From contig JAQGIW010000245.1 in the NCBI GenBank assembly GCA_028290905.1, positions 1 through 64,000 of the forward strand: DNA of 64,000 nucleotides. The letters run 5' to 3'. The position numbers and the translations under genes are program-made. Under the pieces are notes generated by a model that saw only the letters and a list, made by a program, of their open reading frames with translations, was not told where the DNA came from and did not search any database. Of this stretch, positions 13,643 through 39,152 are shown piece after piece. Origin of the DNA: Caulobacteraceae bacterium (GTDB lineage: Bacteria > Pseudomonadota > Alphaproteobacteria > Caulobacterales > Caulobacteraceae). Every line of letters starts with the position of its first letter. The stretch's first letter is position 1.

Positions 13643-13839
13643 TTGGTCGTCGCCACGCACAGGGCGGTCTACGTCCGCCTGTCGCGCGAAGGTCGTGTCT
13701 CGGCGCGTGGTGTAGCTGGTGATCGCCTTGGGCTTGAGGCGAAGCGCACGCAGCGAGCGGAGCCGAGAGCCTCAAGGTGGTGGCCGGCCGCGGTGGTCAT
13801 CGACGGGTCTTCGGTAGGGTCCGGTTGCTGAACTCAACC

Positions 13840-14095
13840 ATGACCGAGGAACCCAAGATGACCGACGACGAGATGATGGCCTTCCGCAGACAGCGGAACT
13901 GGGAGACCCGCGCCAGGACCGTGGAACTGCGAATCCCCAAACTGCGCGAGGGCTCGTACTTCCTGGTCTTCCTGGAGCCCCGACGGCTGGCGGAGAAGGC
14001 GCCGACGGGGTGCTCCAGGAAAGCCTGCATCCAGGGCGTCTCGACCCGCCCACGCGAGGTCCTCGGTCTCGCGGTCGGCCCCTCGGAGGCCGAGC
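13840..14095 (+). mobile_element. IS256-family transposase remnant (degenerate)
   Basis: [33 protein letters not shown]...CIQGVSTR matches memory of IS256/Mutator-type [50 protein letters not shown]; rest missing or frameshifted. Confidence 0.75.
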
Positions 14096-14543
14096 CGTTC
14101 TGGACCGTAAAATGTGAACGATTGTTGCACTCACCTGTTCTGGGGAGTGACAGGCGAGATTTTGTTCGAAACATGGAGCATAATGGCGGTACGGCAGCCT
14201 GTGGAAGATCGGCCACCGTGGATGGACGATGCAATGAACACTCGGCCGAGCAAAGGCTCTGGGCGTCAGCTTCGTCGAAGCTCCGACACATTGCCTGGAG
14301 CGCGGGCTTTCTCGGAGGGGTTCGAATGTTACAATCTTACAGAAATCTCTTGACAAACGATTAGGGAGGGTAGTAGTCAACGGAAGTTCGTAGAGCCGGC
14401 CTCCAGGGCTCGTTACTGTAAGCCGATGGCTTTCAGTACCGATCAGTTAAGTCAAATTCGTGTCTGGTGGGTCTCTCCCTTACAAAGGTAGGGGGAAGGT
14501 CAGGCGATTGCGGCCTGAATACCAGGGAAAGGGCGGGGATCTG

Positions 14544-17806: not shown

Positions 17807-19192
17807 TTAGGAAGACTGGTCGGCCTCAACTCTCTCAAACGACAGGTCGGGCGCCCGGTGCGCGGCTGCTGCGGAGGCTGCGCCGGCGCCCGCCGGGCTG
17901 GGCGCCGAAGACCATGGGCGAGGGCGATAGAGCGAGGCCGCCGAAGCGTCGCGGCGCTCCAGGACCACGGAAAGCAGGCAGCTCGAGAGCGCCAGGATTA
18001 CGAGGAAACCGTCATAATAGGCCATCGAGAGGGCGGAGCCGCCCACCAGTATCGCCACGAGGGCCGTCTGCAGGGCCCGCGCCAGTTTCCTCGCCCAATC
18101 GAGCTCCGGTTGGGATCTCGCGAACCAGAGGACCGCCATCGTGTTCAGCGCCGCGGAGCCCAGGACCGCCAGGTAGAGCGCGAGCCCCACGAACCCGGTA
18201 TCCCCCAGAACCTCGAAATAGATGCTGTGGGCAGCCTTGCCGTAGTCGAGGCTGCCCGGCGATTTGAAGAGCTTTACGATCTTGTCGCGTTCGACGGCGG
18301 CGAAGCCTCCGCCGACCAAGGGCCGGGCAATGGCGATGTTGACGCTGGTCCGCCACGCTGCGACGCGCCCTTGAAAGGATGCGTCCTCGTTGTAGCTGCT
18401 GATCGTCGACATGCGCTCGAGCCAGCTCGCGGGCGCGAGCGCAGGGAGACCGGCGGCGAGGAGCGCTCCGACCGCCAGCAGGACCATGCCCGTGCGCGAG
18501 CGCAGAGCGTGGAAGCCGGCCATCGCGATCAGCGCCACGAGAGCGCCTCGGGAGTAGGTTCCAAGGGTAGCGACGATGGCCAGAACGATCGTCGCCAGCG
18601 CCCCCATCCGCGCCAGCGTCTGTCGGCTGACCGCCCTCAGATATCCGACGAGGGGCAGAAGGACGACAAAGACAAGTCCAAGGTTGTTGTTGTCGGCGAT
18701 CATGGAGTCGGCTGGCCCGAGCACTTTGTGCTGGCCTGCGGTGAAGGCGACGAAAGCCGCGCCTTTGATGGCGTAGAAGCCGATCGACGCCACCACCATC
18801 CAAAGAACCGCCTGGATCCGGGCTGGGGAGCGCGCAAGCGTCGCCACCGCAAGCACGAGGACCATGGTCTTCATAGTCCTGTCCCAGAGTGGAAGCGCAA
18901 ACGACCTGTCGAGAGCCAGATAGGTGCAGACGCAAGACCAAAGCGCAAATAGCACCAGAAAGACTGCGAAGCCGTCCACCGGCAGGGCCTTCCGCTCCCG
19001 GGAGAGCACCCACACAAGAATGGTCAGTATTGCGACACAGAGGTTGAGCCCGAAGTTCGCGAGCAGACCGTAGACCTCCCGCTGCGGGTTCATGAGGCTG
19101 ATCCAGACCCAGGCGAGAACGCCGATGAAGGCGTTGCGCAGAAGCAGCGGGAGCAGGACAAGCAAGCCTGCGAACAGAACGAGGTCGCGCAC
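17807..19192 (-). CDS. O-antigen-ligase-like membrane protein (putative O-glycosylation ligase, exosortase-A-associated, TIGR03097-like)
   Basis: Polytopic; AWVWISLMNPQREVYG start, NNNLGLVFVVLLPL, GTYSRGALVAL, AHSIYFEVLGDTGFVGLALYL. Confidence 0.87.
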   Translation of the reverse strand: MRDLVLFAGLLVLLPLLLRNAFIGVLAWVWISLMNPQREVYGLLANFGLNLCVAILTILVWVLSRERKALPVDGFAVFLVLFALWSCVCTYLALDRSFALPLWDRTMKTMVLVLAVATLARSPARIQAVLWMVVASIGFYAIKGAAFVAFTAGQHKVLGPADSMIADNNNLGLVFVVLLPLVGYLRAVSRQTLARMGALATIVLAIVATLGTYSRGALVALIAMAGFHALRSRTGMVLLAVGALLAAGLPALAPASWLERMSTISSYNEDASFQGRVAAWRTSVNIAIARPLVGGGFAAVERDKIVKLFKSPGSLDYGKAAHSIYFEVLGDTGFVGLALYLAVLGSAALNTMAVLWFARSQPELDWARKLARALQTALVAILVGGSALSMAYYDGFLVILALSSCLLSVVLERRDASAASLYRPRPWSSAPSPAGAGAASAAAAHRAPDLSFERVEADQSS

Positions 19193-19456
19193 CCGGACGC
19201 CTCCTGCACTCTCGTCGGCTGACGAGAATGCTGTGCGTCCCCCCTCCCATCTGCCGCAAATGATAGGCGGCCGTTGCGTCCGGGAGGGCGATGGATCGGG
19301 GCCGCGCGAAAGGGCTGAAGGGCCTCATGCGGCCGCGGCGCCGTCTCCCGCCCGGACGCTGGCGGAGCAAGCCTGTCTGCGACCCTGTCATTTGCGTAGG
19401 CGTCGACCGCCCTCCGAGCTAAGCCCTCGCCAGGGAGTTCCCCAAAGGAGGCGGGA

Positions 19457-21148: not shown

Positions 21149-21283
21149 TCAGGCGACCGCCTGGGCGAACTCGGCCTCCAACGCAGCGACCTCAGGGCCC
21201 TGGCTGAGCCACCCAGGGCGGATGACCCGGGCGGTGGCCTCGGCTTCGGCCTCGCCGACTTTCGGCAGGGCGATTGGAATCAT
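21149..21283 (-). pseudogene. Truncated DegT/DnrJ/EryC1 aminotransferase (N-terminal 44 codons only)
   Basis: [44 protein letters not shown] aligns with the start of the intact paralogue at 29986 (MIPITKPLLDDSEADAAAAVVRSGWLSQGAQVAAFEAEFGARVG). Confidence 0.85.
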
Positions 21284-22290
21284 GCCGCGCGTTCCGGAAC
21301 GGACGCCGGGGCCGAGCGACGTTCCGATCGCCACCAAGCCACCAGTTCCGCGAGGCCGCGATCGAGCGGCACGGTAGGCGCATATCCGATGAGCTCGCGC
21401 GCGAGCCTCAGGTCGGCCAGCCGCTTGGGGACTGGATTGACGACCCTTGGGGGCTCGTGGATCGGGACGAGTTCATCGCGGCCCATCGCCTCGGCCAGTC
21501 GCTGGGCCAGCTCCGCAAGGCTCGTCTCGGTTCCGCTGCCCACATTAAGCGCTACGTCGGTGGCCGGCGAGACGGCTGCGAGCAGGTTCGCACGCGCAAT
21601 GTCATCGACGTGCACCATGTCCATGGTCTCCGAGCCGTCTCCGAAGACCACCGGAGCAAGCCCCGCCTCCGCCCGCTCCATCCAGCGGATCAGCACCTCG
21701 GTGTAGCGGCCGTGGATGTCCATCCGCGGGCCGTAAGCGTTGAAGTAGCGCAGGGCCACGTAATTGAGGCCGTACATCTCCTTGAACGCGCGCAGCAGTC
21801 CCTCCCCGAAGGCCTTGGCGGCGCCATACAGGGTGCGGTTGGCGTACGGCGGGTGCGTCTCGTCCGTGGGGAAGGAGGACGCCATCCCGTAGACCGAAGC
21901 GGACGAGGCCATGACCACCTTGCGTACGCCGGCCGCGACACAGAGTTCGAGGAGATCGTAGGTCGCGTCGACCATCACCTGCATGGCGCGCCGGGGTTCG
22001 GCGGCGCACTGCGTGATGCGTAGCGCCGCCAGATGGAAGACCAGGTCGGCGCCCTCCAACTGCGTCCGCACGAGCTCGCTGTTGCAGATATCTCCGCGGA
22101 TCAGGCGAACGCGTCCGGTTGCAAGAGCGGAGGAGAGGTTCTCGGGGCGACCCCGGACCATGTCGTCGATCACCACGATCTCTTCGGCGCCGTGCGCGAT
22201 CAGGCCATCGACGGTGCGGCTGCCGATGAACCCGGCGCCGCCGGTCACCAGAATCTTGGCGCCCGCGATGGCGGTTAGCGATGGAGTCAC
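21280..22290 (-). CDS. NAD-dependent epimerase/dehydratase (UDP-glucose 4-epimerase-like)
   Basis: [61 protein letters not shown]. Confidence 0.9.
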
Positions 22291-22979
22291 GTGGCGGCTC
22301 CCTCATTGGCCGCGGTCTGGACCCGCTTGGAGATGACCCGCGCAGGCGCCCCGGCGGCCTTGGCGTAGGCCGGCACGTCGCGCGTCACGACAGCGCCGGC
22401 GCCCACGATCGCTCCTTTCCCGACGGTGACCCCGGGCAGGATCACGGCGTTCACGCCGATGTCGGCCTCGGCCTCTATGGTGGTCGGGGAGATCAGGAGG
22501 TCGGTGGCGACGATCGGGACGCTGATCGGCAGCCCCGTATGCATCGAGCCGAGGAGACGCGCCCCTGGCCCCCAGCCCACGTGGTCGCCCAGGACGGTGT
22601 CTCGGACGTCGAGGAAGGACTGGGCGCCTATCCAGACCTTGTTCCCGATGATGCAGCGTCCGTCGTGGCGCCCCTGGATCACGGCCTGTTCGCCGATTGT
22701 GACCCCGTCGCCGATCTCGAAAGTCTCGACGTGCCGCAGCCCGACGCCTGGTGCGACCCGCAGGCCCTCACCGCACCGACGCGCCAGAGCGCGGACGCAG
22801 GTCCGTCGCATCAGACCGTCGATGTAGTCCTCGCCGTAGTTGAAGCGCCGGAACAGCGACATGACCTCGGCCGGCGTGCAGCGCCGCGCGAGGTCCCTCG
22901 CGAACTCCGCCTCGAAGGCCGGATCCGGCTCGACGGCCAGGCGACCGTGGGCGGCCTTCACGAGGCGCGGGCGCCGCAT
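22287..22979 (-). CDS. Hexapeptide-repeat acyltransferase
   Basis: Left-handed beta-helix pattern [15 protein letters not shown]...[33 protein letters not shown]. Confidence 0.87.
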
Positions 22980-24103
22980 CACGCCGCCTCCCCGGCAATA
23001 ATCAGCGGCCCTTGGATCGCCTCCACGAGGCGCTCGCACACCGCGTCGACCTCATCGTCCCCGATCCCCGGGAATATCGGCAGCGACAGGGTCTCGTCGC
23101 AGAAGGCCTCCGCGATCGGGAAGTCGCCCCGCCGGTAGCCTAGGTCCGCGAACGCCGGCTGCAGATGGACGGGGATGGGGTAGTGCACGTTGGTGGCGAT
23201 CTCTGGCGCCAGCCGCCCGCGCACCGCATCCCGGTCGGCCACCCGCACGCCGTAGACGTGGTATACGTGGCGCTCGTCCTCGGCGGGCGCCGGGTGAGCC
23301 ACCCCAAGGCCGGCGAGGAGCCGGTCGTAACGGGCTGCAGCCGCCCGGCGAGCATGGTTCCAGCGCTCAAGGTGCGGCAATTTCACCGACAGGAACGCCG
23401 CCTGCAGCTCATCCATCCGATAGTTGAACCCCTTCTCGGCGTGCAGGTATTTGCGCGACTGTCCCCAGTCCCGCAGACGCCGAAGACGTTCGGCGAAGTC
23501 GCTGCGCTTGGTGACCACCGCGCCCCCTTCGCCACACGCGCCGAGGTTCTTGCCGGGATAGAAGCTGAAGCAGCCGAGGTCGCCGTGCGTCCCGGCCCGC
23601 AGGCCGTCTGCGCGTGCGCCCAGCGCCTGAGCCGCGTCCTCGATCACCACCAGGTTATGAGCCTCTGCGATGTCCATGATGGCGTTCATGTCCGCCATCC
23701 GGCCGTGCAGGTGCACCGGAAGGATCGCGCGGGTCCGTGGCGTGATCGCTGCCTCGATGCGGGCGGGATCAAGGGTCCAGGCGACAGGATCGATATCAAC
23801 AAGGCGCGGGACCGCGCCCACGTACTGGACCGCCGCGATGGTGGCCACGAATGTGGCCGGACTGGTGATCACCTCGTCTCCCGGCGCGACCCCCGCCGCC
23901 AGCAGAGCTAGGTGGAGCGCCGAGGTGCCTGTGTTCACCGCCACGGCGTACGGGCTCCCGCAGAACTTCGCGAGCGAAGCTTCGAAGGCTTCCGTTTCCG
24001 GACCGAGGGTGAACTGCGCTCGGGCGATGACGCGCTGGGCGGCCCGCATCAGCTGCGGCTCCAGCTCCGCCTGCTGCGACTTCAGGTCGAGGAAGGGGAT
24101 CAT
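22979..24103 (-). CDS. DegT/DnrJ/EryC1/StrS aminotransferase (WlbC/WbpE-like)
   Basis: [74 protein letters not shown]. Confidence 0.92.
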
Positions 24104-25134
24104 GAAGCTCTCCGGACCGGGGCGAGCGCGATCGGGTGGCCGCGGAGCGCAATGGATCGGCTCGCCGCCTCCAGCATCTCGACGACCTGAAGGCCGAGAC
24201 GGCCGTCGGTGATCGGCGTAGCCCCGGTGGCGATGCAATCTGAGAAATGCTGGATTTCCGCCAGGAGCGGCTCGGCCGTACTGATCCGGGGCGCCCACAT
24301 GTCGCCGATCCGGTAGCTGACGAGGAGGTCGTAGAGCTCCTCGGGCCCGCCCGCGATGTTCACGCCTCGGTCGTAGACCTTGATCTTCTCGCTTGGCTCG
24401 AGATCGTCCCAGACGATCATTTGTCGGCTGCCGCCGACCAGCACCCTGCGCACCTTCACGGGCGCGAGCCAGTTGACGTTGAGGTGCGCCACCGCCCCGT
24501 TCGCAAGGTAGAGCGTCACTTGCCCCATGCTCTCGGGCGCGCCGGCGATATGGCGCGTCGCGTTGGCCGAAATCATGGTGGAAGGGCTGTCCAGCACGTG
24601 CTGGACGATGGAGAGGTCGTGGACCGCCAGGTCCCAGAGGACGTTTACGTCCGACTGGAACAGTCCAAGGTTCACGCGCGTGGAGTCGTAATAGAAGACC
24701 TCGCCCAACTTGTCTCCGGCGATGAGCTCCCGCATCTTCTGCACCGCGCCCGAGTAGATGAAGGTGTGGTCCACGAGCAGGGTCAGCCCGCGGCGATCTG
24801 CGGCCTCGATGAGCCGGCGCGCCTGAGCCGAGGTCTCGGTCATCGGCTTCTCGACCAGCACGTGTCGACCCGACTCCAGTGCCGCCAGGCTGATTTCGAA
24901 ATGGGTCCGCACGGGCGTAGCGACGGCGACGGCGTTCACGTCGGAGCGGACGAGGGCTTCGCGCCAGTCCGACAGCAGGGGAGTCGAGCCGAAGCGGCTC
25001 CGCGCCCGCTCGAGGGCCGCGGCCGAGGGATCGACGATGGCCGCCAGGCGACAACCAGACGTTTCGGCGATGCAGCGAGCGAGGTTGGGACCCCAATAAC
25101 CGTACCCGATGACGGCGATGCCGATCATCTTCAC
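24100..25134 (-). CDS. Gfo/Idh/MocA-family oxidoreductase (WlbA/WbpB-like)
   Basis: IGIAVIGYGYWGPNLARCIAE; HVLVEKPMTETSAQARRLIEAA; ATG overlaps the next stop codon. Confidence 0.9.
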   Translation of the reverse strand: MKMIGIAVIGYGYWGPNLARCIAETSGCRLAAIVDPSAAALERARSRFGSTPLLSDWREALVRSDVNAVAVATPVRTHFEISLAALESGRHVLVEKPMTETSAQARRLIEAADRRGLTLLVDHTFIYSGAVQKMRELIAGDKLGEVFYYDSTRVNLGLFQSDVNVLWDLAVHDLSIVQHVLDSPSTMISANATRHIAGAPESMGQVTLYLANGAVAHLNVNWLAPVKVRRVLVGGSRQMIVWDDLEPSEKIKVYDRGVNIAGGPEELYDLLVSYRIGDMWAPRISTAEPLLAEIQHFSDCIATGATPITDGRLGLQVVEMLEAASRSIALRGHPIALAPVRRAS

Positions 25135-25149
25135 ACTCCTGGCATTTGT

Positions 25150-25647
25150 TCAGCTGGTTTCCACGTGGGCGAGCTGGCTGCGCGCGTCGCCGCGAAACCG
25201 CGCGGGAACGCCGGCGACGATCGCGCGGGGCGCGACGTTCGAGGTCACCACGGCGCCGGCGCCCACGAGGGCGCCCGGCCCGATGGTGAGCCCCGCCAGG
25301 ATCGTGGCGTTGGATCCGATGGAGGCGCCGCGCATGACCCGGGTGGGTGTGAGCGTCCAGTCGCCGGGGCCCTGGACCTGCCCGCGTTCGTTCGCGGCGC
25401 GCGGGTAAAGATCGTTGGTGAACATCACCCCGTGGCCGATGAATACCTCGTCCTCGATCTCGACGCCTTCGCAGACGAAGCTGTGCGAGGAGATCTTGCA
25501 GCGCCGACCGATGACGGCGTTCGCCTGCACCTCCACGAAAGCCCCGATACGCGTGCCGTCGCCGATCTGGCAGCCGTAAAGATTGACCAGTTCAGGGTGA
25601 AGGATGGTCACGTCGCGTCCGAGCCGGACGTTCGAGGCGACTGGCAT
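25150..25647 (-). CDS. Hexapeptide N-acetyltransferase (WlbB/WbpD-like)
   Basis: VTILHPELVNLYGCQIGDGTRIGAFVEVQANAVIGRRCKISSHSFVCEGVEIEDEVFIGHGVMFTNDLYPRA. Confidence 0.88.
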   Translation of the reverse strand: MPVASNVRLGRDVTILHPELVNLYGCQIGDGTRIGAFVEVQANAVIGRRCKISSHSFVCEGVEIEDEVFIGHGVMFTNDLYPRAANERGQVQGPGDWTLTPTRVMRGASIGSNATILAGLTIGPGALVGAGAVVTSNVAPRAIVAGVPARFRGDARSQLAHVETS

Positions 25648-25891
25648 CGTGATTCCCCGTGCAACCTTGGGCGCTCGGCCGCCCGTTCGACCAAAGGTCC
25701 GCCGCCTGGCCAGCGCCAACCATGTCGTTTGATGCACTTGGTGTTCGCCCGCCGGGCGGCCGCTCGGGCCAAGCGGGCCTTTGGCGGCGTCGAATGATAG
25801 GGCGGGTGCGAGGCGGTCCTGCTTCTGTGGCGTTTCGTGGAACTACACGCGGAGCGAGGCGGATCTCGAAGTGTTCGCAGCAGATGATGCG

Positions 25892-25930
25892 GCGCACAGG
25901 TCGCCGTCGCTCTCGCGGCGACCTGTGCGC
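25892..25930. repeat. Perfect 15-bp-stem hairpin
   Basis: gcgcacaggtcgccg-tcgctctcg-cggcgacctgtgcgc. Confidence 0.9.
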
Positions 25931-25959
25931 GAGTCCGAAGGCGCTCCAGGCGCCATCGA

Positions 25960-26027
25960 AGGGTCGGCCGCGCCCCGGGTTTCCGTGATCGTGCCGGCGT
26001 ACGGACTGGCGCAGGCGCCCCGCGGCG
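25960..26027 (+). pseudogene. Glycosyltransferase family 2 N-terminal fragment
   Basis: APRVSVIVPAYGLAQAPRGG in frame 2, then similarity stops abruptly. Confidence 0.5.
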
Positions 26028-26150
26028 GACCTCGCAATCAATCAGGCGCTGGGGGTGTCATCTTGTTCCACCGGCGACGTCGATCAGAACGGCGTATGCA
26101 ACGTGATCGACGTCCAGCGGGTGATCAACGTCGCTCTTGGGCTGGGTTGC
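26028..26150 (+). pseudogene. Dockerin-type-I-like C-terminal fragment
   Basis: DLAINQALGVSSCSTGDVDQNGVCNVIDVQRVINVALGLGC: end of one repeat plus a complete second EF-hand-like repeat. Confidence 0.65.
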
Positions 26151-26173
26151 AGAATCGGTCTTCCCATCGGGGG

Positions 26174-27274
26174 TCACGATGGAAATCGCGCCACTCTGCT
26201 TCTGAGGTCAACCCCTGCTTTGCCGCACGACAGGAGAAGCCATTTTGTCCAGACTTTTGGCATCCAGAAGTATTCGCGCAAGCCCTTCAGGTAAAACTGC
26301 CGGGCTTTTGCGAACTCATTCCGGCCGTAGTACCGGTCGGCGATCCCGCTGTACACACGGGCACGGACCCAGGATCTCTCCTTCGGATTCGGAGTATGTT
26401 CGTTAAGGGACTTTTCAAACTGCTCCGGCGCCAGCAGCGAGTATGAGTCGGCAGCCTTATATTGTTTTCCCGTCAGGGCATGTGCGTATTCGTTGGCGAT
26501 AGCCCGCAAACACTCTTTCGTGAGTTCGGCTGAGCCGCTCTCTTCCACCATCTTCTTCAGGATCCAGGGAATCCGGATGTCGTCGGAATAGCAGGCGTCC
26601 AGGTTCCCCTGCATGAGTTTATTCGTCATGCTGGAATCGTGACGCCGGTAGCACACCAGCGACTCCGCCAGGTACGCCACATCAAAACGGAGCGCAAATG
26701 CGCACCATAGGTACCAATCGCCTCCCCAGGGCAAATCCAACGGGAACAAGCCCACTTTGTCGTAGCATTCCCTGCGGACTATCCCGGAAGCAGCAACAAT
26801 CGTGTTGGCATGGACCAGCTTAGCTAGCAATCGTCGCCCAGGCATGATCCAGTCTCGATCGCCGTGGACCGAGTAACCCAAGACCTCCGTCTCCTGCCCC
26901 TCGTACAGACCGACGGCGGAACAAAACGCATACCCTACTTTTGGGTTCTTGTCCAGAATTTGCACATATCGTTCCAGCGCGTAAGGCCTGCGCAAACAGT
27001 CATCGGCGGAAATTAACCAGATGTACTTCCCGCGTGCCAAACTAATACCCTTATTATAGTTGCGCAAATGCTTCAAGTTGACTTCATTTCGAATGTACTG
27101 AACTCTCGTATCCCGGAACGATGCTGCGACTTCCGATGTATTATCGGGAGAACAGTCGTCCAAGATCAGAATTTCGAAATCCGTGTACGTTTGGTTCAGA
27201 ATTGATTCGATGCATTCTTTCAACAAATGCGCGAGTCGATAGCAGGGAACAACAAAACTGACTTTCGGATTCAT
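26174..27274 (-). CDS. Glycosyltransferase family 2
   Basis: KVSFVVPCYRLAHLLKECIESILNQTYTDFEILILDDCSPDNTSEVA; lower GC than neighbours; ORF open upstream to 27427. Confidence 0.88.
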   Translation of the reverse strand: MNPKVSFVVPCYRLAHLLKECIESILNQTYTDFEILILDDCSPDNTSEVAASFRDTRVQYIRNEVNLKHLRNYNKGISLARGKYIWLISADDCLRRPYALERYVQILDKNPKVGYAFCSAVGLYEGQETEVLGYSVHGDRDWIMPGRRLLAKLVHANTIVAASGIVRRECYDKVGLFPLDLPWGGDWYLWCAFALRFDVAYLAESLVCYRRHDSSMTNKLMQGNLDACYSDDIRIPWILKKMVEESGSAELTKECLRAIANEYAHALTGKQYKAADSYSLLAPEQFEKSLNEHTPNPKERSWVRARVYSGIADRYYGRNEFAKARQFYLKGLREYFWMPKVWTKWLLLSCGKAGVDLRSRVARFPS

Positions 27275-27454
27275 AGCTATGCCGGCATCTTCTCGCACGA
27301 TTTGTGGGCCACGCCGCGTTGGCGGACGCTCATATCCAGGCTTGGATTCGGGCTCAATAATGTTTTCGTCACTGTCCGACCCGCCTTTCAGACGGGACCC
27401 GAGGATTTCGTTCGATTGTAAAGGCATGTAACTCTGGTCTTCTCCTGGGCCGGA

Positions 27455-28330
27455 TCAGTTGGCCCTCAGTCGTTGAAACTGTTGGATGACGGGATGGAAC
27501 AGTCTGCGCGGACTCGGATCGTACGCCAAGCTTTCCTTCACGCACAGAAAAGCTTTTCGAAAGTTTCTTGTCATGTAAAAATGATTCCTGGCCAAGCCCC
27601 ACATGGTCTCGGCGTAGACTTTGGCGCCCTCCAGATTCCCCGCGTCGGCCAGGCGCTTGTGATGCTTGCGGAGAAGTTGCTCGGTATAGGAAAGCATTGT
27701 TGCCTGATTACCGGTAGTGATGCTACCTTCCCTCCAGCTATATAGGTACAGGGGCTTGGGTACGTAGGTGAAAGATCTGCCACTTTCAATCATCCGGATA
27801 TTGAGATCCCAGTCCTCCCGGTTCTTCATGGACTCGTCGTATAGCCCGACCGCAAGGATGTCCTCACGCCGGAAAAACATTCCCCGGCGGATGAAGTCGT
27901 CCTTGAGAATGCCGTAGAACAGATCTCCGTCCGGCATCTCCGTCCGGTGAATTTCCCGTGAGTTCCCGTTGATTTTGAGAATGTCGGTCACACACCAGCT
28001 CTCACCTGAAGCATCGAGCGTGTCCGACATCATGGACAAGGCGTCTGGGGTGAGCATGTCATCGGCGTCCAGGAAGGCCACATACTTAGCCGTGGAAGCT
28101 CGCGCACCAGTGTTCCTGGCGCCGGGTAGACCGCGGTTTTCCTGGTAGATATATCGGACACGGTTTTCCTGCGAATACCGCCCTAGAACCTCGCGTGTGG
28201 AATCTGTGGAGCCGTCGTCCACCACGATGATGTCGAAATCCTGCATGATTTGTGTGAGGATCGAATCGATCGCGGAACAGATGTACGCCGTGCAGTTAAA
28301 CGACGGAATTACTACACTGATGATCGGCAT
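27455..28330 (-). CDS. Glycosyltransferase family 2
   Basis: ISVVIPSFNCTAYICSAIDSILTQIMQDFDIIVVDDGSTDSTREVL. Confidence 0.9.
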   Translation of the reverse strand: MPIISVVIPSFNCTAYICSAIDSILTQIMQDFDIIVVDDGSTDSTREVLGRYSQENRVRYIYQENRGLPGARNTGARASTAKYVAFLDADDMLTPDALSMMSDTLDASGESWCVTDILKINGNSREIHRTEMPDGDLFYGILKDDFIRRGMFFRREDILAVGLYDESMKNREDWDLNIRMIESGRSFTYVPKPLYLYSWREGSITTGNQATMLSYTEQLLRKHHKRLADAGNLEGAKVYAETMWGLARNHFYMTRNFRKAFLCVKESLAYDPSPRRLFHPVIQQFQRLRAN

Positions 28331-28361
28331 TCGTTATTCCCTACTTGCAATAGTAAGAATG

Positions 28362-29642
28362 CTACGCTCCGCACACCTGCAAGAACTGCTCGGCCTTGCC
28401 GCACCAGTCGGCGGCTGCGGCCCGGGCGAGCCCGCCCTGCCGGAGCCGGGCCCGCAGAGCTCCATCTTCGCGTAGCCGAAGCATGGCGGCCGTGACCGCT
28501 TCGACCGAATGCCCATCGACGATGAGCCCGTTGACGCCGTGCTCGACGGCCTCGACGCTGCCGCCGTCGCGGCCAGCGATGACCGGAACCCCGCAGGCGT
28601 TGGCTTCCAGGAAGACCAGCCCGAACCCCTCGGTGTCGCCATTGGCCAGGGCGCGGTTGGGCATTACGAAGACGTCGCCGAGTGCGTAGTGCGCCGGCAG
28701 CTCCGCATCGGCGACCTCGCCGGCGAATGTGATCCGCTCGGCCAGGCCAACTTCACTGACGAGCGCCTTCAGCTCTGGCTCGAAAGGTCCCTTCCCAACG
28801 ATCAGCAGCCGCGAATCGGGGTGTTTGGCGACCACCTGCTCGAAGGCGCGGATCGTATGGTCCACCCCCTTCTTTTGGATGAGCCGGCAGACGCAGACGA
28901 AGACGAAACAGCCCTTGAGCCCATAGCGCCGCATAAGGTCAGTGCGTCGCGGCTGCGGCCGAAAACGTTGCTGGTCGACGCCATTCAGGATCAGCGTCAA
29001 CTTGCCCGCAGCCTGCGGATCGACGAGGCCTTTCGCGACCTCGACGGAGAAGCGGCTCACCGCCACGACCTCGTTCGCCTGCCGGAGCGCGCGCTGCGCG
29101 CGCCGATGACCCGCGTCCCAAACGTGCTCGGTGGTCATCTCCTCGCCGTGCACATAGGCGACGGTGCGGACCCCTGGCGCCCACCGCAGGAGATAGAGGA
29201 GCCAACCGCCGGCCAGCAATTCACCGACGCAGACCGTCCGGACCCCGTCACCGACGACGAAGCGCAACACGGTTGCAAAGGTCACGATCCGCTGCGCCAC
29301 GTCGGCTGCGAGCCACGCCAGACGTCGCCAGCCGTGCAGCGCAGCCCCGTAGCGCAGCTGGCTGCGCAGCAGGCGGCGGCGCAGGATTCGATAGGGGGCC
29401 GCGCGATCGTAATCGCGCCATCCGGGAAGTTCGCGCCCGTCGACATAGCTGTGGCTGGCCGTCAGCACGATGATCCGGCCCTTCCCCCGCCGCGCGAGGT
29501 TTTCATAAACCACCGACGCGCCGCCGAGGATCGGCGGGAAGTTGCTGGCCACAAGCAGGACGCACGCGGGTCGCGGCGGCGCCTGCAAGGGTCCGGCGCG
29601 TGGCGGGACGATCTGCTCGGTAGTGGGACTTAGGCGGGCCAT
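28362..29642 (-). CDS. Glycosyltransferase family 4 (group 1)
   Basis: ACVLLVASNFPPILGGASVVYENLA; GFGLVFLEANACGVPVIAGRDGGSVEAV. Confidence 0.9.
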   Translation of the reverse strand: MARLSPTTEQIVPPRAGPLQAPPRPACVLLVASNFPPILGGASVVYENLARRGKGRIIVLTASHSYVDGRELPGWRDYDRAAPYRILRRRLLRSQLRYGAALHGWRRLAWLAADVAQRIVTFATVLRFVVGDGVRTVCVGELLAGGWLLYLLRWAPGVRTVAYVHGEEMTTEHVWDAGHRRAQRALRQANEVVAVSRFSVEVAKGLVDPQAAGKLTLILNGVDQQRFRPQPRRTDLMRRYGLKGCFVFVCVCRLIQKKGVDHTIRAFEQVVAKHPDSRLLIVGKGPFEPELKALVSEVGLAERITFAGEVADAELPAHYALGDVFVMPNRALANGDTEGFGLVFLEANACGVPVIAGRDGGSVEAVEHGVNGLIVDGHSVEAVTAAMLRLREDGALRARLRQGGLARAAAADWCGKAEQFLQVCGA

Positions 29643-29985
29643 GGCTGCTCAGCCAACCCACGCCAGCGCAGCCGGCCATATCATTTGCTGGTCGCCATGA
29701 CCGTTGCGGTGGCGCGTCCGCATCCGCCAGCTCGGCTCTGCCGCGGCATTCCAGCTGAACGCGCATCAAAAGACGTAGTCGCCCAACTCGCCCCCGGCAC
29801 AGGAATACATCGAGCTTGTCGATGCTGAGCCGATGGGGAGGCTCGTATTCAATGCCCATTTTTGAGGACGCAAGTCTGCGCTGCGCGTCTTGCTGCATGG
29901 GCAGCGAGACACAGGCCGCCGCAGCTCTTCGCCGCGCGGCGGGCCGAGGGCGGACAGGACCAGACCGGAGCAAAGGGCAGGCAGC

Positions 29986-31158
29986 ATGATCCCGATCACC
30001 AAGCCGCTGCTCGACGACAGCGAGGCCGACGCGGCGGCCGCCGTGGTGCGCTCCGGCTGGCTGAGCCAGGGCGCGCAGGTCGCCGCCTTCGAGGCCGAGT
30101 TCGGCGCGCGGGTGGGCGCGCCCTATGCCTGCGCCGTCTCCAATTGCACGACGGCGCTGCACGTGGCGCTGATGGTGGCAGGCGTCGGCCCAGGCGACGA
30201 GGTCGTGACGGTCAGCCACAGCTTCATCGCGACGGCCAACGTGGTGCGTCAGTGCGGGGCCGCGCCGATCTTCGTCGATATCGACCCGCTCACCTATAAC
30301 CTCGATCCCGACCGGCTCGAGGCTGCGATCACGCCCAGGACCCGGGCGGTGCTCTGCGTCCACCAGCTCGGGATGCCTTGCGACCTCGCCAGGATCCTGC
30401 CGATCGCAGGCGCCCAGGGGCTGGCGGTCATCGAAGACGCCGCGTGCGCGATCGGGTCGGAGATCCGGCTGGACGGCCAGTGGTCGCCGATCGGGACGCC
30501 GCATGCCGACGTGGCCTGCTTCTCGTTTCATCCGCGCAAGGTGATCACCACCGGCGAGGGCGGCATGCTGACGACCCGCCACGCGGAATGGGACCACCAG
30601 TTCCGCCTGCTACGCCAGCACGGCATGAGCGTTTCGGACGCGGTGCGGCACCGCTCCGATCAGGTCGTGTTCGAAGACTACCTGATCAGCGGGTTCAACT
30701 ACCGCATGACCGATATCCAGGCCGCTATCGGCCGGCGACAGTTGCAGCGCCTGACCGGGATCATCGCCCGCCGGCGCGAGCTGGCCGGGCGATACCGCGA
30801 GCTGCTCGCCGACATCCCGACCGTGCGCCCCCCGTTTGAGCCGGACTGGGCGCGCTCGAACTGGCAGAGCTATGGGGTCGGGCTGCCGGACGGTGCGGAC
30901 CAGGGCCGGGTGATGCAGTCAATGTTGAAGATGGGCGTCGCCACCCGGCGCGGCGTGATGTGCGCCCATCTCGAGCCCGCCTACGCGGCCGCGACTGCGC
31001 CGCCGCTGCCCGCCTCTGAGGCCGCCCACAGCCGCACCATCCTGCTGCCGCTCTATCCGCAGATGACCCACGCCGAACAGGTGACTGTGGTTGGGGCGCT
31101 ACGCATGGCGCTCAACGCCGAGCCCGCGCTTGGCGACGCCTTCTGCGCGGTAGCCTAG
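29986..31158 (+). CDS. DegT/DnrJ/EryC1/StrS aminotransferase
   Basis: MIPITKPLLDDSEADAAAAVVRSGWLSQGAQVAAFEAEF; SNCTTALHVALMVAGVGPGDEVVTVSHSF; FSFHPRKVITTGEGGMLTT. Confidence 0.93.
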   Translation: MIPITKPLLDDSEADAAAAVVRSGWLSQGAQVAAFEAEFGARVGAPYACAVSNCTTALHVALMVAGVGPGDEVVTVSHSFIATANVVRQCGAAPIFVDIDPLTYNLDPDRLEAAITPRTRAVLCVHQLGMPCDLARILPIAGAQGLAVIEDAACAIGSEIRLDGQWSPIGTPHADVACFSFHPRKVITTGEGGMLTTRHAEWDHQFRLLRQHGMSVSDAVRHRSDQVVFEDYLISGFNYRMTDIQAAIGRRQLQRLTGIIARRRELAGRYRELLADIPTVRPPFEPDWARSNWQSYGVGLPDGADQGRVMQSMLKMGVATRRGVMCAHLEPAYAAATAPPLPASEAAHSRTILLPLYPQMTHAEQVTVVGALRMALNAEPALGDAFCAVA

Positions 31159-31159
31159 G

Positions 31160-32008
31160 ATGACTGCATCATCGACCCCTCTGCCGGCGCGCCGCGTGAC
31201 CGAGGTCCGGCCCGGCGGGCGCTGGGGCGACCTGGACCTCGCCGAGCTCTGGCGCTTCCGGGAGCTGCTCTACTGCCTGGTGCAGCGGGAGCTGAAGATC
31301 CGCTACAAGCAGGCGGCGATCGGCGTTGGCTGGGCCGTCCTCCAGCCGGTGCTGGCGGTGCTGATCTTCGCCGTCATCTTCGGCCACTTCGCCAAGATGC
31401 CGACGGGCGGAACGCCCTACGTCATCTTCGCCTTCACCGCGGTCCTGCCCTGGACCTACTTCTCCGAAGCTTTCCGCCGAAGCGCCGGCGGGCTGGTCAG
31501 CGACGCCGACCTGGTTCGCAAGATCTATTTCCCGCGGCTGATCGTGCCGCTGGCCCAGGTGACCGCGCCGCTCGCGGACTTCGCAGCCGGCTTCGTCGTG
31601 CTGCTGGTGCTGTTCGCCGCCTTCCACGTCGCCCCCACCCCGGCCATCGTGCTCCTGCCGCTCTTCCTGCTGGTGGCGCTGGCGCTGGCGCTGGCCATCG
31701 CGCTCTGGCTGGGCCCGATCAGCGTTCGCTTCCGCGACACGATCCACGCCTTGCCCTTCCTGCTCCAGATCTGGATGTACGCCTCGCCCGTGGCGTATCC
31801 GGCGTCGATCGTGCCGGAGCGCTGGCGCCTGCTCTACAGCCTCAACCCCATGGTCGGCGTCATCGAGGGCTTCCGTTGGGCCCTGCTCGGCTCCAGCCAG
31901 CCCGACTTCAGGGCCATGGCGGTCAGCGGGGCCTTCATCATCGTCGCGCTCGCCGGCGGGGTCGTCTACTTCCGGAAGATGGAGCGCTCCTTTGCCGACG
32001 TCATCTGA
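31160..32008 (+). CDS. ABC-2 type polysaccharide export permease (Wzm/TagG-like)
   Basis: RELLYCLVQRELKIRYKQAAIGVGWAVLQPVLAVLIFAVIFGHFAKMPT. Confidence 0.92.
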   Translation: MTASSTPLPARRVTEVRPGGRWGDLDLAELWRFRELLYCLVQRELKIRYKQAAIGVGWAVLQPVLAVLIFAVIFGHFAKMPTGGTPYVIFAFTAVLPWTYFSEAFRRSAGGLVSDADLVRKIYFPRLIVPLAQVTAPLADFAAGFVVLLVLFAAFHVAPTPAIVLLPLFLLVALALALAIALWLGPISVRFRDTIHALPFLLQIWMYASPVAYPASIVPERWRLLYSLNPMVGVIEGFRWALLGSSQPDFRAMAVSGAFIIVALAGGVVYFRKMERSFADVI

Positions 32009-33302
32009 CGCCCTGGGCGATGTCGCCATCGCCGCCACGGGTCTTGGCAAGCAGTACCGGCTCGGCGGCGGCCCGCGGCACAACACCCTCCGGGACGCGG
32101 TGACCGCCTCATTCAGCTCCCTCGGCAAGCCGCGCTCCACGCGTCAGGTCGCCGAACAGTTCTGGGCTCTGCGCGACGTCTCGTTCCAGATCCGGCAGGG
32201 AGAGAACGTCGGGATCCTGGGGTTGAACGGCGCCGGCAAAAGCACTCTGCTCAAGGTGCTCTCGCGGGTGACCACACCCACCACCGGAAGGGCGTGCATG
32301 ACCGGCCGCCTGGGCTCCCTCCTCGAGGTGGGCACAGGGTTCCACTTCGAGCTGACGGGACGCGAGAACGTCTACCTCTACGGCGCCATCCTGGGCATGA
32401 CGAGGGCCGAGATCGCCCGCAACTTTGAAGCCATTGTGGAGTTCGCGGGGGTCAGCGAATTCATCGACACCCCGGTCAAACGCTATTCCAGCGGCATGTA
32501 CGTGCGCCTCGCCTTCTCGGTCGCGGCGCACCTCGAGCCCGACATCCTGCTGCTCGACGAGGTGCTGTCGGTGGGTGACCTTGCGTTCCAGCGCAAATGC
32601 ATCGACTTCGCGAAGGGCCTGCAGAAGCGAAATGCGACGATCCTGTTCGTCTCGCACAACATGTTCAACATCAAGACCATGTGCGAGCGGGTGATCTACC
32701 TGCGCAACGGTCGGGTCGAATTCGATGGACCGACCGCACGAGGCATCGAGCTCTACGAGGCCGATTCCCAATTGAGCGAGGTCACCTGGGCGAACGGCGC
32801 GGGGTTGTCCGAAGCCGGTCGGCCCGTCACCATCACGAACGTCGCCCTGATGGACGAGGCAGGTGCGCCGCGCGGGGTGTTCGATCGGGGCGAAAGGCTG
32901 CGGTTACGGATCGGCTACAAGATCCATTGCCCCATTGAATCGCCGAATTTCATTGTCGCGATAATACGCTCCGACGGCGTTCCCTGCTGCAACTTCAACA
33001 CCGCCCTCGACGGAATGGCGGTCGAGGCGACAAGCGAGGCCGGCGTTCTGCAGCTCACCACGCCTCCGCTCAAGCTTGTGTCGGAGCTCTACAGGATCGA
33101 GATCCTGGTCCGGGAGAACGGCTTCGACAGGCTGCTGTGCGCCCAGGGGGGCGGCTCGTTCCATATCCGCGACGCATTGCTCGACACGCACTTCGGGGTG
33201 TTCCACGAGCCCGGCCACTGGACGCAGGAGACAGCTGAAGCCGGGGTCCCCAAACCACCTGACCTCGGGGCGCTGGCTGAAGAGCGCCGGGTCCGTGCCT
33301 GA
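31992..33302 (+). CDS. Polysaccharide ABC exporter ATPase (Wzt/TagH-like, C-terminal Wzt_C-type extension)
   Basis: QGENVGILGLNGAGKSTLLKVLSRVTTPTTG; YSSGMYVRLAFSVAAHLEPDILLLDEVLSVGD. Confidence 0.93.
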   Translation: MPTSSDALGDVAIAATGLGKQYRLGGGPRHNTLRDAVTASFSSLGKPRSTRQVAEQFWALRDVSFQIRQGENVGILGLNGAGKSTLLKVLSRVTTPTTGRACMTGRLGSLLEVGTGFHFELTGRENVYLYGAILGMTRAEIARNFEAIVEFAGVSEFIDTPVKRYSSGMYVRLAFSVAAHLEPDILLLDEVLSVGDLAFQRKCIDFAKGLQKRNATILFVSHNMFNIKTMCERVIYLRNGRVEFDGPTARGIELYEADSQLSEVTWANGAGLSEAGRPVTITNVALMDEAGAPRGVFDRGERLRLRIGYKIHCPIESPNFIVAIIRSDGVPCCNFNTALDGMAVEATSEAGVLQLTTPPLKLVSELYRIEILVRENGFDRLLCAQGGGSFHIRDALLDTHFGVFHEPGHWTQETAEAGVPKPPDLGALAEERRVRA

Positions 33303-33463: not shown

Positions 33464-34648
33464 TCACCGCCCCCCCGCGGCAAGCTGCTCGAGGAGGCGA
33501 CGGTGAGCGCGGATCATGGAGTCCGCACCGTAGACCTCCGTCGCGCGCGCCCGGTTGGCTGCGCCGACGGTGCGCCGAAGCTGAGGATCCTCCACCAATC
33601 GGGCGATGGCCGCCGTAAGTGCGAGGGTCGAATGGCCGACCACGAACGGGCGGTTCTCAGGCGAAAGCATGCTCCGCACATCGCCCACGTCGAACGACGC
33701 CACCGGCAGAGCCGCGTCCATGGCCTCGAGCACCACCAGCGGCATCTGCTCCGTGTCGCTCGACACGGCCAGCAGATCGCACTGCATCACGATATCTCGC
33801 GCGTCCCGACGCGCCCCGAGCAGGCGGACGCTGTCGCCAAGTTCAAGTGCGCGCGCCGCCGCGACCACCCGTGCGCGTTCCGGGCCATCGCCGATGATCA
33901 GCAGCGTCGCGCGGTCGCGCAGGGGAGCGAAGGCGTGCAATAGCCCGACAGGGTTCTTCTCTGGTCGGAGCGCGCCGCTCCAGGCGACTCTCACGCGGTG
34001 CGCAGGCAGGTCGAGGCCAAGAGTCTCCAGCGGTGTGGACGGACGTTGTCGGGAGGGTACGCCGTTCGGCACGTGGTGCAGCCTCCTAGGGCTGACGCCC
34101 CAACTCTCGAGGGCGAGGTTGCGCAGGGTCTCGGACGGCGCCAGCACGTGGCACCGTCGCAGCGCCAATCGCCGTCCCCATACTCGTCTCCGGAGCTGCC
34201 TTGTGGCTTCCTCCGGGCCGAAGCCGTCTTCAAGATGGAGGTGCGGGCGGCCGACGAAGGTGTTGGCGAAAGCAAACTCCATGGCGCCCCAATTATAGGT
34301 GAGCAGCACGTCCGGCCGGAGCTCGGCGAGCATGCGTCCGTAGGCGAGGAGCCGGCCCGGAAGACGCCCACATGAACGCGCGCTGAGATATGTGACCGCT
34401 GCGTCTTGAGGTACGATCTCGCTCGCCTCGTAGTCGCCGCGGAGAGCCAGGATACTGTGCGAGACGTCCGAGCCGAACCCAGCGGCGAGGCTGGCGAAAC
34501 GCACCTGGGCGCCGCCGATATTGAAATTCGGGAAGACGTGAAGCAGCCGCAGCCGCCGCCCCGAGGGCGGCGCGCCTGTTCGCTGTAGCGCAGCTGCGGA
34601 CCGTTCGCCGTGCGGCTCCCTCGAAAGGCCGGCGATGCCCTGGGCCAT
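33464..34648 (-). CDS. Glycosyltransferase family 4 (group 1)
   Basis: LLHVFPNFNIGGAQVRFASLAAGFG; VLEAMDAALPVASFDVGDVRSML. Confidence 0.87.
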   Translation of the reverse strand: MAQGIAGLSREPHGERSAAALQRTGAPPSGRRLRLLHVFPNFNIGGAQVRFASLAAGFGSDVSHSILALRGDYEASEIVPQDAAVTYLSARSCGRLPGRLLAYGRMLAELRPDVLLTYNWGAMEFAFANTFVGRPHLHLEDGFGPEEATRQLRRRVWGRRLALRRCHVLAPSETLRNLALESWGVSPRRLHHVPNGVPSRQRPSTPLETLGLDLPAHRVRVAWSGALRPEKNPVGLLHAFAPLRDRATLLIIGDGPERARVVAAARALELGDSVRLLGARRDARDIVMQCDLLAVSSDTEQMPLVVLEAMDAALPVASFDVGDVRSMLSPENRPFVVGHSTLALTAAIARLVEDPQLRRTVGAANRARATEVYGADSMIRAHRRLLEQLAAGGR

Positions 34649-34654
34649 CTCTCT

Positions 34655-36058
34655 TCACCGCCCGCCATGGGCGAACAGTACGACCCGAACCGTCTGCAGC
34701 AGGATGAGCAGATCCAGTACGAGGTCGCTTCGCTTCAGATAGTAGAGGTCGTAGGCAAGCTTGCGGCGCGCGTCCTCCACCGTGGCCCCGTAAGGATAGT
34801 TCACCTGCGCCCACCCGGTGATTCCCGGCGGCACTCTGTGCCTCAGGTCGTAGTAGGGAATCTGCTTCCTGAGCTGCTCAACGAAGAACGGTCGTTCGGG
34901 GCGCGGCCCGATGAAGCTCATCTCTCCGGCCAGGACATTGATCACCTGGGGTATCTCGTCGATCCGCACCTTGCGGATGAATCGCCCTACCCGTGTGACC
35001 CGGTCGTCACGGCTGCCGGCCCAACGCGGCGCTCCGTCGCTCTCGGCGTCGACGCGCATGCTGCGGAACTTCCAGGCCTTGAAGATCGCGCCGTTCAGTC
35101 CCACGCGCTCCTGGCGGTAGAAGACCGGTCCGGGGCCGTCCAGGTTAATGGCCAGGGCCACGAGCAGGCAAAGCGGCGCGGCGATGAGCAGGAAGGTCAG
35201 ACTGATGACCACGTCGATGACACGCTTCGCTCGCCGACGGGCTGGGCGGAGGATGAGCCCTTCGGAGAGCGCCAGCCAGGCGCCGGCGCCGCGGGCGACC
35301 TCCACCACGCCAGCCTCCCGCTCCCAGAAGTCAAGGGCGCCGATTACCCGAATGCCCCGCAGCTTGCATTCCAGCAGCTCGTCCACCGGCAGTGCGCCAC
35401 GGTCCTCGCAGGCGACCACGATTTCGTCGCTCTTCAGGTTTTCGGCCAGCTCGGAAAGGCTCAGCGCGCGGGCGGACGGGTCCGTCAGGAGGACATTGCC
35501 CATCCGGGTGGGCTGGAGGTCCGGGCCCCAGCTTTCAAGGGTCGTGAGATGCTCGAAACGGTCGCGCCCGGGGCCACGAAGGAAATCTCTCACCTTCTCC
35601 GAGTCGGCTGCGTCGCCGAGGATGAGAACCCGTCGCTTATGCGAGGGTCGGCCGAGCCACCAGCCAAGTGTGAGGCGCAGGCCAACCTGGACCGACATGA
35701 CAAGGGCCGCGGTCGCCCCGAGCAGCAGCGGGGAAGGTCCGAGCCGTCCCACCGCGGCGAAACCGCCTAGGGCCACGAACAGCAGCGCCGCGGCCGCAAT
35801 GAACTCCCAGCTCACGAGGAACCGCTTCAGGTAGGTCCCCACGTCGCGCGCTGCATCGCCGTTATAGACGCCAAGGGAGATGGTGAGCAGGAGCAGCCCA
35901 AGCGCGATGGCTACCGCCTGGTAGGGTTCGAGAGCTACCCCGCGCGCGCCGAAAGCATGAGGGAAGCTGATCCAGGCCAGCGGAAGAAAGAACAGCAGCG
36001 CGTCTAGTCCAGCATAGGCTACGGCGTGCCGCTCTACATGATGACCGAAGAGTTTCAA
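34655..36058 (-). CDS. Undecaprenyl-phosphate sugar phosphotransferase (EpsB/WcaJ-like, XrtA-associated type)
   Basis: RRAKRVIDVVISLTFLLIAAPLCLLVALAINLDGPGPVFYRQERVG...FKAWKFRSM...EIPQVINVLAGEMSFIGPRPERP. Confidence 0.92.
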   Translation of the reverse strand: MKLFGHHVERHAVAYAGLDALLFFLPLAWISFPHAFGARGVALEPYQAVAIALGLLLLTISLGVYNGDAARDVGTYLKRFLVSWEFIAAAALLFVALGGFAAVGRLGPSPLLLGATAALVMSVQVGLRLTLGWWLGRPSHKRRVLILGDAADSEKVRDFLRGPGRDRFEHLTTLESWGPDLQPTRMGNVLLTDPSARALSLSELAENLKSDEIVVACEDRGALPVDELLECKLRGIRVIGALDFWEREAGVVEVARGAGAWLALSEGLILRPARRRAKRVIDVVISLTFLLIAAPLCLLVALAINLDGPGPVFYRQERVGLNGAIFKAWKFRSMRVDAESDGAPRWAGSRDDRVTRVGRFIRKVRIDEIPQVINVLAGEMSFIGPRPERPFFVEQLRKQIPYYDLRHRVPPGITGWAQVNYPYGATVEDARRKLAYDLYYLKRSDLVLDLLILLQTVRVVLFAHGGR

Positions 36059-36335
36059 CGTGCATCCCCATTTCTGGGTATCTACTGAGGCCGTCCGGAC
36101 GCAAAGGCTCGGTGTCCTGATCTTTCAAGTCATGGTGAAGTGCGGCGACCTGCCCCTATCCAATGATCGCCGCGCGTGTGTTTTTTTGCTCGGCTTGAGG
36201 TCCAAGTGCCGCGCGCGCCTCGCGAGGGAGGGCTGCTGGCCACCTCGGCGGCAGGGCGGGTAGGGCGATTATCTTTCGATCACGCCTGTCGAGCCAGCTC
36301 CATGCGACTGTTGCGACCCGAAGCGGAGGCGGTCG

Positions 36336-37643
36336 ATGACGCGCGTGCTGGTATTCTCTACCCTGTTCCCCAATGCGGCCCAGCCAAACCACGGCGTCTT
36401 TGTCGAAAACCGGCTGCGCGAAACCGTTGCGCTCGGGGGGCTATCCGCCACTGTGCTTGCGCCCGTACCCCTCTTCCCCATTACCCATCGCGCCTTCGGA
36501 CGCTACGCCGCCATCGCCCGGGCGCCGCGATGGGAGGTCCGCCACGGGATCGAGGTGCTGCACCCGCGTTATCCGGTGCTGCCCAAGGTGGGCTCGTGGC
36601 TGGCGCCCACGGCGCTCTTCCGCACGGGGCTGAACGCCGTTCGCGATCTCGAGTCGCAGGGGCGGAGCTTCGATGTCATCGACGCCCACTACTTCTATCC
36701 GGACGGCGTCGCCGCGGCCCGGTTGGGCCGAGCCCTCCGGATCCCGGTGGTGGTCACCGCCCGAGGGAGCGATCTCACCCTAATTCCCTCGAGCGCCGGC
36801 CCCCGGCGGGTGATCCGTTGGGCCGCCCGGGAGGCCAGCGTCGGCGTCGCCGTTTGCGAGGACCTCAGGCGCCGCCTCGTGGAGCTCGGCGCGCCGGCCG
36901 AGCGCACCCTGGTGCTGCGCAATGGTGTGGACCTCGAGGTCTTCCGTCCGGGCGACCGTCAGGCCGCGCGGGCGACCCTGGGGTGCGATGCCTTCACCCT
37001 CGTGTCCGTCGGCAGCCTGATCGAGCGGAAGGGGCATGACCTCGTCATCGAAGCCCTTTGCAAACAGGCCGGCTGGCGGCTGCTGATCGCCGGATCCGGA
37101 CCCCTCAGAGGCGAACTCGAAGCCTTGGCGCGCCGCCTGAAAGTGGCCGATCGCGTCCGCTTCCTCGGCGAAGTTCCGCATGGGAGTCTCCCGGCGCTCT
37201 ACACCGCGGCGGACGTCATGGTCCTGGCCTCCTCGCGCGAGGGCTGGGCGAACGTGCTTCTGGAGGCCATGGCTTGCGGCGCGCCGGTGGCGGCGACAGA
37301 CGTGAATGGGACGCGCGAGGTCGTCGCCGCCCCGGTTGCCGGGCGGTTGATCGCGGAGCGGTCCGCCGCGGCGGTCGCCGAGGCAGTGCGCTCCATCGAG
37401 GCCTTCCCACCGGGCAGGAGCGAGACCAGACGCTACGCCGAACAGTTCGGCTGGGCTGAGATCGCCCAGGCCAACCGGGCCCTGCTCACCGCCGCAGGCG
37501 CCGCCGGCTACGATGGGCGTCACGATCCGAAGATCGTCACCGCCGCCCAGGTCCTGAGCCGGGCGAGGGGCGAAGCTATTGACGACCATCGGATCCGGCC
37601 GGGCGTTGCGGCTGATCGGCTACGCGTGCCACTCCAGCGGTGA
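36336..37643 (+). CDS. Glycosyltransferase family 4 (group 1)
   Basis: MTRVLVFSTLFPNAAQPNHGVFVENRLRETV; LIERKGHDLVIEAL; NVLLEAMACGAPVAATDVNGTREVV. Confidence 0.9.
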   Translation: MTRVLVFSTLFPNAAQPNHGVFVENRLRETVALGGLSATVLAPVPLFPITHRAFGRYAAIARAPRWEVRHGIEVLHPRYPVLPKVGSWLAPTALFRTGLNAVRDLESQGRSFDVIDAHYFYPDGVAAARLGRALRIPVVVTARGSDLTLIPSSAGPRRVIRWAAREASVGVAVCEDLRRRLVELGAPAERTLVLRNGVDLEVFRPGDRQAARATLGCDAFTLVSVGSLIERKGHDLVIEALCKQAGWRLLIAGSGPLRGELEALARRLKVADRVRFLGEVPHGSLPALYTAADVMVLASSREGWANVLLEAMACGAPVAATDVNGTREVVAAPVAGRLIAERSAAAVAEAVRSIEAFPPGRSETRRYAEQFGWAEIAQANRALLTAAGAAGYDGRHDPKIVTAAQVLSRARGEAIDDHRIRPGVAADRLRVPLQR

Positions 37644-38999: not shown

Positions 39000-39152
39000 A
39001 AGAGGTGATTGCTGCCGCCTACCTCGGCGGGCGGGTGGAAATGGACGTTCCTGCCTCCAGCCCCACCTCGTCTCCCGACCAACCCTCCGCCGCTTCGGGG
39101 CCGAGGCCCATCGGGCCTGGGCCGACGCCGCCGCGGCCTGACATCGGGTGGA

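Follow-up and report, generated by a model that had tools for sequence, protein, structure and literature searches.

Our analysis of a 64,000-nucleotide stretch of a Caulobacteraceae genome (assembly GCA_028290905.1, contig JAQGIW010000245.1, positions 1 to 64,000; hereafter the window) leads us to regard the site at 25960 to 26150 as very probably a recombination scar, left when an Acidobacteriota glycosyltransferase cassette was horizontally imported into a hypervariable exopolysaccharide/O-antigen-type cluster and truncated a resident GT2 glycosyltransferase gene. As we envisage the event, ~2.3 kb of Bryobacterales (Acidobacteriota)-type DNA would have been joined in just past codon ~48 of the resident gene, the remainder of which would have been lost. 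The imported piece would carry a pair of intact GT2 genes; its left end would be formed by the final ~43 codons of a neighboring gene for a secreted, dockerin-tailed protein.

Results

The resident GT2 gene survives on the plus strand as a 5′ remnant of ~48 codons (25871 to 26015, frame 2), which opens with a GTG at 25871 and reads VFAADDAAHRS...APRVSVIVPAYGLAQ. An acetyltransferase gene is divergent from it. At the equivalent locus of G011 (contig C347), a congeneric genome, this acetyltransferase gene and intergenic region are also present and precede an intact GT2 gene of 352 aa, to whose N terminus the remnant aligns in frame over 47 residues (49%, E 1.6e-5), with its GTG placed against the ATG of the G011 gene. 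The DNA between 21154 and 26011 matches G011 at 85%, and this homology breaks off sharply at 26011. With only its ~48 N-terminal codons and no Pfam match, the remnant falls short of a complete GT-A domain; as read from the sequence, it is a native gene that has been truncated. A search across the window for the 3′ part of the resident gene found none, and a simple insertion that split the gene in two was rejected on the grounds that no such part lies further along the window. According to the preliminary description of this site, the same arrangement in a close relative would have spoken against a transfer; G011 instead carries the intact GT2 gene and no dockerin-like piece.

Beyond its GT2 gene, G011 continues directly with the counterpart of window positions 33474 to 39012, such that the part of the window from 33474 onward is the part found directly behind the intact gene. 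The G011 counterpart of 29981 to 33224 lies on the other side, beyond the block matching 21154 to 26011, and is inverted. Since block order and orientation differ in this way, the cluster has been rearranged between the two genomes. In the window, the block from 28362 to 33224 (GT4, DegT, and Wzm/Wzt) now lies between the scar and this part at 33474 onward.

Within 25960 to 26150, the start of a GT2 is followed by a dockerin-like piece in another frame of the same (plus) strand, as had been described at the outset. The junction between them can be confined to an interval of ~19 bp without assignable homology (26012 to 26030), bounded by the end of the G011 homology and by the start of the dockerin-tail homology at 26028 to 26031. 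The dockerin frame is interrupted upstream by a stop codon at 25986 to 25988; that of the GT2 continues through unrelated sequence as far as 26446. Because the frames are unjoined in this manner, no GT2-dockerin fusion protein is encoded. The chimeric fusion originally proposed thus gives way to two dead fragments, dead because the dockerin-like piece stands in a different frame and lacks a start of its own.

No integrase, insertion sequence end, or flanking repeat was seen at the junction, and neither tandem repeats nor a tRNA that could serve as an integration site was present there (the window has a single tRNA, at 587). Among close inverted repeats, a 15-bp hairpin within the GT2 remnant (25892 to 25930) is the only one near the junction. 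The absence of a repeat, an integrase, and a tRNA fits non-homologous joining, without proving it. Of the earlier suggestion that this was an illegitimate junction arising from horizontal transfer, the transfer stands, and "illegitimate" is likely but unproven, given that no repeat or integrase marks the junction. As a separate observation, a fragment of a Mutator-family transposase (13738 to 14364, plus strand; Transposase_mut profile positions 65 to 118 of 379, E 1e-8) sits ~12 kb to the left of the scar.

The dockerin-like piece (26031 to 26159, plus strand, frame 0; LAINQALGVSSCSTGDVDQNGVCNVIDVQRVINVALGLGCRIG) is the 3′ remnant of a gene for a dockerin-tailed, apparently secreted protein and corresponds to the last ~43 residues of the tail. 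A profile built from 29 C-terminal tails, all of them read from other genomes, picked it out when all six reading frames of the window were searched (65.7 bits, E 1.5e-19; the next best match had an E value of 1). The match covers profile positions 27 to 69 of 70, up to CRIG, which bears out the original reading of the end of one dockerin-type repeat followed by a full second one. By this profile similarity, the scrap conforms to the family motif LxINQALG..C...D.(D/N).(D/N)G.CNV.DVQRVINAALG..C..G. It does not contain the two calcium-binding loop repeats that define PF00404, and its 40 residues match Pfam Dockerin_1 only weakly (17.2 bits, E 0.006, below the 22.9-bit gathering threshold) because no more than ~1.3 repeats remain (repeat 2 plus the end of repeat 1). 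Against this model, full-length tails from the family give 18.0 to 31.7 bits, and three of the six tested exceed 22.9. The lack of a dockerin HMM match, which the preliminary description had considered damaging to its case, was thus not encountered, given the homologous tail family and the subthreshold Pfam match.

A member of the family should also close a secreted protein, no more than a few residues past the last Cys, but both the carrier protein and the family stop are absent from the window, where the terminal P/Q and stop of the family are replaced by LPIGG.... Either the stop of the tail was lost or a second junction lies at ~26160. The scrap retains three of the four cysteines conserved in the family. 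These positions are occupied by C in 27, 21, 21, and 29 of the 29 tails; the family occurs in Bryobacterales and Elusimicrobia and is borne by varied proteins.

It could be argued that a dockerin-like product is still made here, either from an open reading frame at 26055 to 26291 (with a GTG start) or from a frameshifted GT2-dockerin fusion. The intact calcium-loop residues of repeat 2 (D.D.N...N..D) and the three surviving cysteines would suit such a product. However, it would have neither a signal peptide nor a carrier domain, its frame differs from that of the GT2 start and has a stop upstream, most of repeat 1 is gone, and its C terminus has been replaced by out-of-family sequence. We give this idea almost no credence and regard the two pieces as debris.

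The tail family was found in 34 of 200 sampled genomes of the order Bryobacterales and in 4 of 396 genomes drawn across the Acidobacteriota phylum but in none of 99 other sampled genomes of the family to which the window belongs. This distribution fits the proposal, made with the first description, that such tails are typical of Acidobacteriota and related groups. That the own-phylum and Acidobacteriota draws represent different phyla is indicated indirectly, because the listed genomes do not overlap. Contigs from 85,462 species genomes were scanned with one real sequence row and three composed rows that loosened the pattern, in a search confined to two short patterns; tblastn with the real row then verified the matches. 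Eight loci were confirmed: four in genomes labeled Bryobacteraceae, Bryobacterales, Terriglobia, or Acidobacteriota, one in a Deltaproteobacterium, and three from a single Elusimicrobia genome. A search for the tail in IMG/VR and in a plasmid collection yielded nothing.

The foreign DNA does not end with the 190 bp originally delimited; the island extends over ~2.3 kb (~26020 to 28350) and contains, besides the tail scrap, two intact GT2 genes on the minus strand. GT417 (26174 to 27427, 417 aa, GC 53%) and GT291 (27455 to 28330, 291 aa, GC 54%) are intact open reading frames that match Glycos_transf_2 well above its 23.3-bit cutoff (104.9 bits, E 5.7e-30, and 122.5 bits, E 2e-35, respectively). 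Between 26031 and 28330, GC is 0.53 to 0.58 and GC3 is 0.63 to 0.70, versus 0.65 to 0.72 and 0.75 to 0.90, respectively, in the flanking genes; Bryobacterales loci have a GC of 0.55 to 0.64. GC falls from ~0.68 at 26031 and recovers at ~28400. In 150-bp steps, it rises from 0.49 (28250 to 28399) to 0.73 (28400 to 28549), which places the right edge of the island at 28331 to 28361, between GT291 and a GT4-family glycosyltransferase gene (28362 to 29642, minus strand, GC 68.5%; Glycos_transf_1 E 1.7e-37). The latter gene is upstream of and collinear with GT291 and GT417, and its GC and GC3 are typical of the host.

Such a sharp difference in GC and affinity, in a metagenome-assembled genome of 317 contigs, is also what might be expected had the assembler merged reads of two organisms. 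We consider this highly improbable. The foreign piece lies inside genus-like DNA (G011 matches the left flank at 85% and the right flank at 72% from 29981 and 79% from 33474), so that an artifact would take two separate misassemblies at a distance of 2.3 kb. Moreover, the reported contamination is 0.44%, a search of the same assembly with the tail and the beta-helix protein gave no other match, and the remainder of the dockerin gene was not found there.

Both imported GT2s have their best matches in Bryobacterales, by a margin of >170 bits over their own phylum. For GT417, the best relatives are in genomes G593 (50%, E 4e-110, 369 bits) and G627 (43%, E 7e-94, 315 bits), compared with 36 to 40% over 215 to 219 residues and at most 136 bits among 399 own-phylum genomes. 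For GT291, they are in G599 (54%, E 8e-107, 357 bits) and G627 (46%, 266 bits), compared with 32 to 37% over 212 to 222 residues and at most 109 bits among the same 399. In trees, GT291 nests with its G599 and G627 relatives (supports 97/93 and 99/98, starred), and GT417 groups with those of G593 and G627 (81/93, not starred). In G627, the gene related to GT291 (G627:C50:30146-31009) has an internal TAA stop and looks like a pseudogene or a sequencing error. Among the plasmid matches listed for GT417 and GT291, only distant ones, below 40% identity, were seen, and a plasmid vector for the pair is accordingly not implied.

Linkage provides a further connection to Bryobacterales. Each of the two genomes with a long relative of GT417 also has a dockerin-tailed gene in the vicinity (13.2 kb away in G593 and 6.2 kb away in G627), a proximity with a chance of ~1e-5 under random placement, as calculated post hoc. 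TIG, beta-helix-like, and choice-of-anchor-Q features are seen in the tailed proteins, which terminate in ACRIGP* (G593) and VCRVGQ* (G627); "beta-helix" and "secreted" are our reading of their sequences. Just upstream of the GT417 relative, both genomes contain DNA resembling the Wzt region of the window (74% nucleotide identity in G593 and 68% in G627). A region of G627 (C50:10000-45000) contains homologs of a large part of the window cluster, including DegT (73% nucleotide), an epimerase (67% nucleotide), MocA, and the acetyltransferase (66% amino acid). Such clusters are therefore shared between the two phyla, and the G627 cluster suggests that sharing has occurred repeatedly. The window cluster itself (16701 to 39179) combines PEP-CTERM/XrtA-type EPS genes (a PEP_O_lig_1 ligase at 17807 to 19324 and an EpsB_2 glycosyltransferase at 34655 to 36124) with an ABC exporter pair (Wzm-like at 31154 to 32008; ABC_tran plus Wzt_C in 31563 to 33299).

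Discussion

Whether the island arrived all at once deserves comment. The scrap of dockerin tail may have been acquired separately from the two GT2 genes, whether in time or in source: the tail lacks its own stop, positions 26160 to 26174 fall outside the assigned pieces and leave room for a second junction, and the tail, GT417, and GT291 occur together in the order and orientation of the window in no genome seen. For this last reason, the island may have been pieced together from at least two imports. Nevertheless, all three pieces are low in GC and have Bryobacterales affinity, and where a long relative of GT417 occurs (two genomes), it lies within 6 to 13 kb of a tail gene. We judge separate events to be an unlikely but serious alternative and favor a single import. 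With respect to its source, the true donor was not found: the best protein identities, in Bryobacterales, are 50 to 54%, from GT2 searches that covered Acidobacteriota and the phylum of the window. The donor could be another group having these genes in common.

If the scar arose in this way, the dockerin and GT2 fragments would be dead by-products, and the functional product would likely be the imported GT2 pair, collinear behind GT4; the sugar repeat unit would probably be changed as a result. Presumably, GT417 and GT291 substitute for the lost GT2 activity. One speculative and rather improbable extension is that the Bryobacterales genes with cysteine-rich, dockerin-like tails are a regular, cotransferred part of surface polysaccharide clusters, the scrap being a cross-phylum fossil of such a unit. 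Were this true, the tailed beta-helix protein would be secreted and would work on, or be anchored to, the glycan made next door.

Horizontal shuffling of genes is a familiar process, and the scar adds an unambiguous though unremarkable example of it. Its value lies in documenting, to ~20 bp, an import of glycosyltransferase genes from one phylum into the exopolysaccharide cluster of another, with a taxon-informative scrap at the edge and an intact same-genus counterpart, which makes it useful as a clean worked example of cluster diversification.

Dockerins have been noted in Acidobacteria, where they were grouped with cohesin and S-layer modules as "other" CAZy-type features (PMC5900883); that paper contains nothing about the present tail. 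Complete tails of the Bryobacterales family resemble type I dockerins (PF00404) in having two C-terminal calcium-loop repeats, with Pfam scores of up to 31.7 bits, but differ from them in having four conserved cysteines; the scrap in the window, at ~1.3 repeats, differs further in falling below the Pfam cutoff. Its ending, GCRIG, matches the ACRIGP and VCRVGQ of the G593 and G627 TIG/beta-helix/choice-of-anchor Q proteins as far as the last residue, although the window keeps the tail alone.

Glycosyltransferase cassettes in O-antigen and exopolysaccharide clusters can be acquired horizontally. As in such cases, low-GC genes are inserted in the polysaccharide cluster of the window, resident genes are truncated at the edges, and blocks are rearranged between relatives. 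Unlike in those cases, the probable donor here is in another phylum, of the Bryobacterales type, and is recognizable by a scrap of dockerin tail.
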